Source: an uncultured Mycoplasmatota bacterium (GTDB lineage: Bacteria; Bacillota_I; Bacilli_A; RF39; UBA660). From it: 32,390 nt of DNA. The stretch lies in the NCBI GenBank assembly GCA_948466735.1, contig CAOKBR010000011.1, positions 1 to 32,390 on the forward strand, read 5' to 3'. The notes under the pieces are model-generated. The model ran no database searches, was not told where the DNA came from, and saw nothing but the letters and a program-made list of their open reading frames with translations. Of the stretch, positions 3,621-16,399 are shown in pieces. The first letter of the stretch is position 1. Each line of letters begins with the position of its first letter. A program made the position numbers and the translations under genes.

Positions 3621-4326
3621 ATGTATGGTGCAGTTATTGGAGATTTAGCAAGTTTTATATAAGAGATAAGCAAATAAAAAAAGTTTCCACAGTTTCTGTG
3701 GATAAAATTATTTCACAAACAAGTTTTTTTAGCGATGATACCATATTTAACAATATCAATATTAGATGCAATATTAAATGATTTAGATTATGAAAAATAT
3801 TTAAGGAAGTATACAAAAGAGTATTTGAATTATCATCTAGACTTTAATCTATATTTTAAAACTTCTTTTTCTCCTCAATTCATAAAATGGTATGAAGTGC
3901 TTATTGAAGGAAAAAGTTTGGGAAATGGTGCTATAATGAGAATATCTCCTGTTGGATACTTATTTGATAGTGAAAATGAAGTGAAGAAACAAGCGCAATT
4001 AGCTATTCTACCTTCACATAATTCAATAGAAGCCCTAGAAGCGTCGCAAATTGTGGTACTAATTATTTATTATGGAAGAATTGAACTTTCTAAAAGGAAA
4101 TCATGAATAAATTAGGAAAGACACTCCAATATTTTCATCAAATAGTTTTACTGAATCGATTAAAAAAGTCATTTCCTATGGCGGGGATACCGACACTAAC
4201 GCTTGTATTGTTGGTTCTATGGCAGAAGCTTTATATGGAATAGATGAATCACCGATTAAACTAGCTAAACAAAAGCTTCCTGATGAATTTAATGCTACCA
4301 TAGAAAAGAGTTATCAAAAAAAATAA
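3621..4326 (+). pseudogene. ADP-ribosylglycohydrolase, broken by stop, frameshift and deletion
   Basis: GGAGG (3609-3613) precedes an ATG giving MYGAVIGDLASFI, the family N-terminus (usually MxGAIIGDxxGSxYE), then an immediate TAA. Homology resumes at once (KQIKKVSTVSVDK... TSFFSDDTI), with the metal-ligand motif SDDT at about 3731. An extra T near 3746 shifts the frame. The next segment (ISILDAILNDLDYEKYLRKY, FKTSFSPQFIKWYE, GNGAIMRISPVGYLFD) is open until 4106. After a deleted middle part, the C-terminus returns in a third frame with SYGGDTDTNACIVGSMAEAL, the second metal motif, ending at 4326. An intact enzyme (about 250 aa) would remove ADP-ribose from modified targets using two metal ions. 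At least three lesions make this copy non-functional. Confidence 0.88.
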
Positions 4327-15300: not shown

Positions 15301-15376
15301 GCTGGAATAGCTCAGTTGGTAGAGCAATCGTCTCGTAAGCGATAGGTCGCAAGTTCAAATCTTGTTTCCAGCACCA
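15301..15376 (+). tRNA. tRNA-Thr (CGT)
   Basis: The 76-base gene folds as a full cloverleaf. The acceptor GCTGGAA/TTCCAGC pairs perfectly. The D-stem is GCTC/GAGC, the anticodon stem ATCGT/GCGAT and the T-stem GCAAG/CTTGT, with the TTCAAAT loop. The anticodon loop CTCGTAA gives anticodon CGT, reading ACG (Thr). Discriminator A and an encoded CCA end follow. Confidence 0.97.
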
Positions 15377-15387
15377 GATTGATAGGA

Positions 15388-15404
15388 AACTCGAACTTCG
15401 AGTT
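15388..15404 (+). repeat. Perfect dyad after the tRNA
   Basis: AACTCGAA (15388-15395) and TTCGAGTT (15397-15404) form a perfect 8-bp dyad around one base. It lies between tRNA-Thr and its terminator. It may shape the tRNA 3' trailer for processing. No other role is evident. Confidence 0.5.
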
Positions 15405-15412
15405 AAAATAAC

Positions 15413-15438
15413 AAAACGACTTGTAAAAAAGTCGTTTT
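15413..15438 (+). terminator. Terminator of tRNA-Thr
   Basis: AAAACGACTT (15413-15422) pairs perfectly with AAGTCGTTTT (15429-15438) around a 6-nt loop, with a T run in the 3' arm. The -35 box proposed for the downstream RNA overlaps it. Confidence 0.85.
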
Positions 15439-15449
15439 TATGATATTAT
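15421..15449 (+). promoter_or_regulatory. Proposed promoter of the antisense RNA
   Basis: TTGTAA (15421-15426) and TATTAT (15444-15449) are 17 bases apart. They would start a plus-strand RNA at about 15456 that converges on the peptide mRNA. The -35 overlaps the tRNA terminator, so its independence is uncertain. Confidence 0.5.
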
Positions 15450-15472
15450 GTATTTGTCAAGGAAACTTGCAT

Positions 15473-15515
15473 AAAATAAAAAAGGGAATACTTAACTTTG
15501 GCGAGTTGAGTACTT
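15473..15515 (-). terminator. Terminator of the peptide mRNA
   Basis: Read on the minus strand, AGTACTCAACT and AGTTAAGTATT (15504-15514 and 15487-15497) form a stem with one mismatch and one G-U pair, followed by CCC and TTTTTTATTTT (15473-15483). It would end the minus-strand mRNA 43 bases or more beyond the peptide stop. Confidence 0.6.
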
Positions 15516-15530
15516 ACCTATAAATGGTTA

Positions 15531-15567
15531 AGCACTTAATCTATGCTAGATTGAGTGCTATTTTTTT
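15531..15567 (+). terminator. Strong terminator overlapping the peptide gene's 3' end
   Basis: AGCACTTAATCT (15531-15542) pairs with AGATTGAGTGCT (15548-15559), 12 bp with one G-U, around ATGCT, followed by A and seven T. The minus-strand stop codon (15558-15560) lies in its 3' arm. Confidence 0.85.
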
Positions 15568-15647
15568 ATAGATAAAATCATTAAAGAGACTATTAATAAA
15601 ATGATTATTAATATTAGAAATGAGATTAATAAATCTTTTTTCTTCAT
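15558..15647 (-). CDS. 29-aa hydrophobic membrane peptide, candidate type I toxin
   Basis: The ATG (15645-15647) has an excellent ribosome binding site, AAAGGAGG, with 9 bases between AGGAGG and ATG. The peptide starts MKKKDLLISFLILIII, continues with Leu/Ile/Val to about residue 26 and ends in IKK: a basic end, one membrane helix and a basic end. This is the shape of type I toxins such as BsrG, TxpA and Fst, although the sequence is not one I recognise. A minus-strand promoter lies at 15711-15739, a 5' leader of about 57 nt has its own hairpins, and a convergent plus-strand RNA overlaps the 3' end. A small regulatory membrane peptide without toxicity is the main alternative. Confidence 0.7.
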   Translation of the reverse strand: MKKKDLLISFLILIIILLIVSLMILSIKK

Positions 15648-15710
15648 AATATCAAGCCTCCTTTCATAAGAAAGTTGGCAAGCACTCAACAATTAAGTTT
15701 CCCTACTTCA

Positions 15711-15739
15711 ATTATAATAAATTAATAGCTATATAGCAA
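15711..15739 (-). promoter_or_regulatory. Promoter of the 29-aa peptide gene
   Basis: On the minus strand TTGCTA (15734-15739) and TATAAT (15711-15716) are 17 bases apart. Transcription would start at about 15704 with GAAGTAGGGAAAC. A hairpin CTTTC-TTAT-GAAAG (15661-15674) then covers the beginning of the Shine-Dalgarno. Confidence 0.65.
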
Positions 15740-15819
15740 TAAATATAAACTAAATTATGACAATATAGTAAACACACTTGTATATTGATATATAGTCAAT
15801 ATAGGAAAGGATTATAAGT

Positions 15820-16290
15820 ATGTCGGAATTAACTATTGTAATTGATAATTGGGGACATAAAGAACTAAAAGAATATTTAATGTCTTTAAAAGGAATTTTA
15901 GATGTTGAAATTAAAAATGATGAACAACTAGACATTTATTTAAAATATGATTCTAGTTTAATAACTTCCAAAATAATAAAAATGGAAATTACATTGTTTT
16001 TAAATATTACAAAAATTCCTTTTCTACTTTCTTTTAATAAGTATCCAAAATTTGAAACATCTAATTATACAATAACTAGAGATAATCTTTGTTGTGAATA
16101 CTGTTACAAAAGCGCCATAGATGATTTGTTTGAAATAGAAGGAATAGAAATGGTTAAAGGGAATTTTAATGATGATTATTTATTTAAAAAATATGAAGAT
16201 CGTGAAAAAATCATAATAAACATAAAATATGATCCTAATTTGATAAGCACTGAAGAAATGAAACAAATTGAATTAAAATTAAATATATAA
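15820..16290 (+). CDS. Two-domain HMA-like (ferredoxin-fold) protein, unknown role
   Basis: The 156-aa product has two halves of similar strand-helix pattern. The first (TIVIDNWGHKELKEYLMSLK, then GILDVEIKNDEQLDIYLKYD) has no Cys. The second (YTITRDNLCCEYCYKSAIDD, then IEGIEMVKGNFND and EKIIINIKYDPNLISTEEMK) has CCEYC at the place of the HMA metal motif and the usual '-xV..Y-P--I...' end. It looks like a divergent tandem of heavy-metal-associated domains in which only the second could bind metal. GAAAGGA precedes the ATG. It stands alone after the TA-like locus. A role in metal handling is an inference. Confidence 0.65.
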   Translation: MSELTIVIDNWGHKELKEYLMSLKGILDVEIKNDEQLDIYLKYDSSLITSKIIKMEITLFLNITKIPFLLSFNKYPKFETSNYTITRDNLCCEYCYKSAIDDLFEIEGIEMVKGNFNDDYLFKKYEDREKIIINIKYDPNLISTEEMKQIELKLNI

Positions 16291-16299
16291 AAAAGTTGT

Positions 16300-16399
16300 T
16301 GAACGTCCTTCTTTAGGGCACCAGTGGGAAATCCTTCTAACTTTTAAATTAGGAGTTTAAAGTAAAAATCAACTTTCTAGAAATGGATTGTTGATTTTT
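16300..16399 (+). terminator. Structured 3' region ending in a terminator
   Basis: AAAAATCAAC (16364-16373) pairs perfectly with GTTGATTTTT (16390-16399) around a 16-nt loop that itself contains TTTCTAGAAA. Before it, 16310-16326 can fold as GTCCT-TCTTT-AGGGC (with G-U), and 16333-16359 as CCTTCTAA against TTAGGAG. The last stem is a good terminator for the CxxC protein gene. Whether the earlier stems form a regulatory RNA is unknown. Confidence 0.65.

Follow-up and report, generated by a model that had tools for sequence, protein, structure and literature searches.

A 29-codon reading frame for a putative membrane peptide lies on the minus strand just beyond a tRNA-Thr gene in a contig of an uncultured Mycoplasmatota bacterium, and a short plus-strand transcription unit converges on it; the question that this locus raises is whether the two constitute a type I toxin–antitoxin (TA) module. 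The original prediction, made from the stretch of 32,390 nucleotides that we analysed (hereafter, the window), had proposed as much, and the type I TA-like module is supported by our results as the best explanation of the locus, the peptide being conserved and the tRNA adjacency significant.

Elements of the locus and extent of the family

The elements on which that proposal rested were recovered at the positions collected in Table 1: the minus-strand frame with its Shine–Dalgarno sequence shortly 5' of the ATG, a promoter of its own, a promoter on the plus strand, and a strong plus-strand terminator that the stop codon of the peptide touches. Terminator-like sites in the region numbered 2 against 0.2 expected in shuffles; promoter-like matches, taken by themselves, were near chance (13 against 11.3 expected), but the promoters are nevertheless credible because the loci of relatives repeat them. 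Promoter position, leader, hairpins, ORF, and Shine–Dalgarno sequence recurred in some 150 loci, with conserved -10 elements at both convergent promoters, and the antitoxin-promoter context TGTTATTATGAATATGTC was kept across the collected copies. For the antitoxin transcript, the most likely start is the conserved GTCAAGG at 15456.

Table 1. Features of the locus in the window, with coordinates in the numbering of the whole stretch.
Feature	Position	Strand	Remarks
tRNA-Thr(CGT)	15301..15376	+	upstream neighbour; recurrent neighbour type of the loci; ARAGORN and Rfam
Two-hairpin spacer, tRNA 3' end to antitoxin promoter	15377..15440	+	GATTGATA...CTCGAAC...TTCGAG, then terminator-like AAACGACTT/AAGTCGTTT
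Antitoxin promoter	15421..15449	+	-35 TTGTAA, 17-nt gap, -10 TATTAT, TG-extended
Putative antitoxin RNA, ~111 nt, three hairpins	15456..15566	+	fold z and covariation
5' leader hairpin CAAG-GAAA-CTTG	15458..15469	+	common to all groups
A-rich antitoxin leader (+), U tract of the toxin-transcript terminator (-)	15470..15483	both	CCCTTTTTTATTTTATG
H2: antitoxin hairpin; on the minus strand, toxin-mRNA terminator hairpin and 3' panhandle arm	15484..15518	both	
Antitoxin intrinsic terminator	15531..15567	+	hairpin 15531-15559, then T7; co-varies with toxin 5' UTR and H2
Predicted full-length toxin mRNA, ~230 nt	15474..15703	-	5'-3' panhandle fold
29-aa membrane peptide, putative toxin	15558..15647	-	MKKKDLLISFLILIIILLIVSLMILSIKK
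Shine–Dalgarno hairpin	15656..15679	-	AAAGGAGG at 15664-15657, in small hairpin GCC..CTTTC-TTAT-GAAAG..GGC
T5: toxin mRNA 5' end	15677..15703	-	inverted copy of H2, 5' panhandle arm
Toxin promoter	15711..15739	-	-35 TTGCTA, 17-nt gap, -10 TATAAT; without LexA box here
Remnant, similar to the promoter region of a next cassette	15738..15803		AAACACACTTGTATATTG

Repeats of GCACCAG at 15371-15377 and 16319-16325 flank about 950 bp that hold the TA unit together with a 156-aa ORF (15820-16290, plus strand), and in the sister species another arrangement follows the same tRNA-Thr; this stretch may be an inserted cassette. The ORF contains CCEYC and had no Pfam match; from its appearance, it may have a tandem heavy-metal-associated-like fold.

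A DNA search with the region 15380-15820 matched the locus in 39 of 60 relatives, mostly in multiple copies, and returned a second copy, 86% identical, from within the window's own genome. The antitoxin promoter and leader (...TGTTATTATGAATATGTCAAGGAAACTTGCATAAAATAAAAAAGG...) were common to all copies, and the exact leader occurred in at least 115 stretches of named genomes, which were gut MAGs labelled uncultured Bacilli, Tenericutes, or Candidatus Ventrenecus. Reading frames of about 30 aa that face a convergent RNA, for which relatives had been the proposed place to look, were obtained by a strict scan at 158 loci (143 after removal of duplicates), all gathered outward from a single member and with peptides of 24–31 aa. 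By a covariance model of the antitoxin (E≤1e-5), copies were present in 99 of 154 genomes of the host's family, up to 15 in each, and in a class-wide sample 22 of 38 family genomes were positive versus 1 of 258 outside the family. That sole outsider carried a B-type unit (L269, G220:C32:8000-12038, at 3732-4025) of 86.8% identity over ~294 bp, which unit looks like a transfer of itself alone, since the neighbours were unrelated and the homology, starting from the antitoxin -10, was limited to the unit.

The window's genome held two complete A units, one C unit (its peptide read by eye), and one remnant, namely an antitoxin whose toxin gene was broken; the sister species had a decayed, toxin-less copy after the same tRNA-Thr. 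Head-to-tail arrays also occurred, of the same or of mixed groups, with units mostly 344–475 bp apart, as in L145 (4829, 5304, 5779) and L167 (3823, 4177, 4521, 6718). The pair observed in the window represents a single member of a large family of TA-like units that had not been named before. A phage or plasmid origin was considered and rejected: the exact leader was absent from 2.9 million viral contigs, plasmids gave no match, and one short match of 76% in a Staphylococcus phage lay where no feature is annotated.

The loci sorted into at least five specificity groups. Group A peptides (analysed as A1 and A2) read MKKKDLLISFL..., those of B MKTKTFILKVLK..., of C MTKREFSLFIIILL..., of D MRKQEKYLCSIII...IKIVPTV, and of E MNKKDFLIFAL.... 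The H2 hairpin, the terminator, the toxin 5' UTR, and the peptide varied between groups and were matched within each locus, whereas the antitoxin promoter and leader were constant. The original prediction had made its case depend on conservation of the peptide in relatives, and purifying selection was indeed what we found, the median pairwise dN/dS being 0.12 in A1, 0.17 in A2, 0.41 in B, 0.13 in C, 0.58 in D—for which reason the group D peptide is weakly backed—and 0.16 in E; in the window's own group, with its peptide median of 0.12, the other two frames gave pN/pS values of 0.67 and 3.9. Group means were 67–79% hydrophobic, with a net positive charge. The peptide had been described as unrecognised, and scans of Pfam, NCBIfam, PHROGs, and the PDB likewise gave no significant relative; that of the window has neither P nor G, so that the PXXXG motif is absent. 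On sequence grounds, the 29-aa frame is a real gene.

Predicted structure and pairing of the two RNAs

The antitoxin RNA (15456-15566) folds to three hairpins with a z of -5.1. In an alignment of 144 hits that covered all groups, standard pairs made up 95% of the cells, 25 of 25 pairs showed a double change, and doubly changed cells numbered 618 versus 125 in shuffles—a large margin, although covariation is favoured by an alignment that had been fitted to the structure—while sliding the partners left 28–45% paired. No Rfam family reached its gathering threshold for this RNA; the weak matches to mir-142 and Srn266, well under their cut-offs, were dismissed.

The toxin transcript, for its part, apparently ends at H2 as read on the minus strand. 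An end at the hairpin 15531-15559 was set aside, that hairpin having its T run on the plus strand only and no U tract on the minus, and the fold of an mRNA so ended having a z of -4.0 versus -8.4 for one ending after H2, which is where the toxin-strand U tract stands; the leader stretch complementary to that tract held at least 8 A in 14 at every locus scored. With the ends thus revised (an mRNA of ~230 nt running to 15474) the antisense overlap of ~90 nt that had been estimated stands, the antitoxin being fully antisense to those final nucleotides of the toxin mRNA.

Because the 5' end of that mRNA, T5, is an inverted copy of H2, the full-length molecule would close into a panhandle. The fold predicted for the 230-nt sequence has an energy of -69 kcal/mol (z -8.4), pairs the 5' and 3' ends over ~23 bp, and puts the Shine–Dalgarno sequence in a small hairpin; such a panhandle was predicted in 141 of 143 loci, and RNAalifold, given no prior structure, also produced it for groups A and B. 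The mean energy of each locus's own 5' and 3' ends was -32.1 kcal/mol, versus -19.1 upon permutation across loci and -29.1 upon permutation within the group, and 0 of 5000 permutations of either kind reached the own value, which counts, the loci being related by descent, are not probabilities of independent events. In most of the 28 group B sequences, the Shine–Dalgarno sequence of the toxin mRNA can also pair with a conserved CTCCT within the ORF (columns 52-56 with 125-129 of alignment A4), like the internal anti-Shine–Dalgarno of aapA3.

The complementarity between the antitoxin body and the toxin 5' UTR was -20.8 for own pairs versus -17.4 for others overall, and within a genome -20.9 for cognate versus -17.1 for non-cognate pairs, the own partner being the best in 50 of 77 instances (34% expected). 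Same-group non-cognate pairs in one genome reached -20.1, so that copies of the same group are expected to cross-react. When both RNAs were allowed to fold, the antitoxin body was predicted to bind the isolated toxin 5' UTR no better than shuffles (-1.9 versus -3.0 kcal/mol), in consequence of which we locate the principal contact in the 3' overlap and regard trans-pairing at the 5' end as doubtful; control may rest on that overlap.

Location beside tRNA genes and possible control of the toxin promoter

The position after a tRNA gene, to which the original prediction had drawn attention, was a significant property of the family: among leaders with enough upstream sequence 63 of 207 had a tRNA within 260 nt upstream, always on the same strand, versus 11 of 635 control windows. 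The GATTGATA spacer was 85–90% identical beside different tRNAs of other genomes, and it also precedes other cassettes that have no TA unit. The candidate CACCAGATTGATA was rejected as a boundary unique to the TA element, since it is found as well after tRNAs that have no TA unit; such non-TA examples are L253, L254, L255, and L258. The tRNA 3' ends of several genomes carried the GATTGATA...CTCGAAC hairpin plus a promoter-like stretch, AAACACACTTGCATATTG, before non-TA sequences. Small cassettes at tRNA genes may form a wider system.

Many copies are apparently wired to the DNA-damage response through LexA-type boxes. The pattern RAACN4GTTY, in forms including AGAACAAATGTTTG, occurred in 47 of the 143 toxin promoters (0.12 in shuffles) at a fixed register, 14 nt before the start of the -10, and in none of the antitoxin promoters of the collected loci. 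LexA was present in all the family genomes examined (24/24), and of 23 lexA promoters, 21 carried this box themselves. An operator-like motif of a second kind, TGTTCGNTTGT, stood at the -35 of 21 of the 143 toxin promoters (L010, L123, and L018 are examples), 15 of them at one register, and never together with the LexA box. The toxin promoter of the window had neither motif, and no boxed toxin promoter was seen in the window's genus, whose LexA-like protein keeps the DNA-binding domain, as well as a lexA box in its promoter, and no longer has the Ala-Gly cleavage site or the active-site Lys; in the window's species the active-site Ser is also replaced, by E. These degenerate genes (G000:C1:27268-27873, L246; G001:C27:7793-8311, L247) possibly encode a non-cleavable protein.

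Interpretation and relation to known systems

Taken as a whole—convergent RNAs, a dual-use H2, a closed mRNA, antisense removal, and peptide release—the reading that we prefer has, in our estimation, a probability of about 0.86. Two convergent transcripts would be made, a constitutive antitoxin of ~111 nt with three hairpins and a toxin mRNA of ~230 nt encoding a single-span membrane peptide of 24–31 aa, with H2, one hairpin in the DNA, put to two uses: as structure in the antitoxin and, in its minus-strand reading, as the terminator of the toxin transcript and the 3' arm of its panhandle. The panhandle and the Shine–Dalgarno hairpin—structures for which conservation speaks—would hold the full-length toxin mRNA in a state that we infer to be untranslated, and the antitoxin would trap or destroy that mRNA at the 3' overlap, probably through RNase III. 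Upon a shortfall of antitoxin, as might follow LexA cleavage in the LexA-boxed copies, the peptide would be made and, by analogy with TisB, DinQ, and Fst, would depolarise the membrane. The arms, having changed together by specificity group, would enable several units to coexist in one genome. To a more general proposition we give even odds: that these are lineage-wide, modular, partly orthogonal, SOS-triggered type I TA cassettes, mobile units of ~300 bp that settle preferentially 3' of tRNAs, with a constant antitoxin promoter and leader, with specificity hairpins and toxin exchanged as a set, and with a single hairpin that is both the antitoxin pairing domain and the toxin terminator and panhandle arm.

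The same parts could, however, serve a selfish role, that of a small mobile cassette 3' of tRNAs that addicts its host and stabilises itself or its neighbours with no response to stress. This reading, which we rate as less likely than not, is compatible with the best explanation, because the difference is one of function and not of parts. It finds favour in the tRNA adjacency (63/207 versus 11/635, the strand always the same), the head-to-tail arrays and remnants, the decayed copy that the sister species has at its syntenic tRNA-Thr, the passage of a unit alone into another family with unrelated neighbours, and the occurrence of the tRNA-side spacer before other cassettes; yet the LexA boxes in a third of the toxin promoters suggest regulated use, and the viral contigs searched gave no exact match to the leader and the plasmids no match.

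One-span peptides of such size can be regulatory, and the peptide might then be a non-toxic small regulatory or structural membrane protein under the control of an antisense RNA; its toxicity is something that we infer, and hydrophobicity by itself makes no toxin. Against this stand the many fast-turning paralogous copies, some of them decayed, the several peptides, seemingly unrelated, that share one RNA architecture, and the double translational lock of panhandle and Shine–Dalgarno hairpin, all of which are typical of toxins, so that we consider such a protein improbable. Less credible still, and by a wide step, is that T5 and H2 are the terminal repeats of a MITE-like transposable element with the RNA structure as a by-product: an imperfect inverted repeat of ~30 bp does bracket the toxin gene, and the copies are dispersed, but the parts best conserved, namely the leader, the promoter, and the first hairpin, are not included in that repeat. 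From group to group, the two repeat arms of a locus have changed in concert, covariation in H2 and in the terminator is that of hairpins, and purifying selection acts on the peptide; a MITE would be expected to show none of this.

The type I TA-like module may now be set beside the systems to which it had been likened. In TxpA/RatA and BsrG/SR4 of B. subtilis, convergent genes reportedly overlap by ~90 nt at their 3' ends, with the stop codon near a shared hairpin, and that layout is the part of the original analogy that holds; as to mechanism, the closer parallels are par/Fst, aapA/hok, and, for the sister copies, tisB. The flanking-repeat panhandle and the tRNA-side location distinguish our locus from those two systems, and no Pfam, NCBIfam, or Rfam family above threshold linked its peptide or RNA to theirs.

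With par/Fst-RNAII, the reference system of the Fst/Ldr family (PMC7472228), the locus shares convergent promoters, a short hydrophobic peptide, an antisense RNA over the 3' end of the mRNA, a 5' stem-loop over the Shine–Dalgarno sequence, and low-GC Gram-positive hosts. It differs in having the inverted repeat T5/H2 in place of the direct repeats DRa/DRb of par, apparently two separate terminators in place of a bidirectional one, a peptide without PXXXG, and an antitoxin of ~111 nt with a constant leader; since it has neither the peptide motif nor the direct repeats, we place the family outside Fst/par. In aapA (PMC6733600) and hok, the full-length toxin mRNA is closed and requires 3' trimming, and the likeness to aapA/IsoA of Helicobacter and to hok/Sok extends to the long-distance 5'-3' closure, the multiple copies, and the antisense RNA, whereas the bacteria are unrelated, the peptides appear so from the Pfam and NCBIfam scans, and the 3' arm is here the other strand of the antitoxin hairpin and terminator. 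In E. coli, LexA represses the toxins tisB and dinQ but not their antitoxins (PMC8309996); as in tisB/istR-1 and dinQ/agrB, there is a membrane peptide of ~27–29 aa, with a LexA-boxed toxin promoter in those 47 of 143 copies and an unboxed antitoxin promoter, but the convergent overlapping layout, the multicopy specificity groups, and the Gram-positive-type LexA box are different, and the copy in the window is unboxed.

Searches of the open-licence literature returned no description of the family. It would constitute a new family of type I TA-like systems, combining the convergence of par/Fst, the closed mRNA of aapA/hok, and, in many copies, an SOS link like that of tisB. Its ~150 natural variants with co-varying arms offer a data set on how an RNA antitoxin keeps its specificity as paralogs multiply, and the making of a panhandle from a terminator, together with the LexA boxes, would tie translation control, termination, and the SOS response into one unit of ~300 bp.
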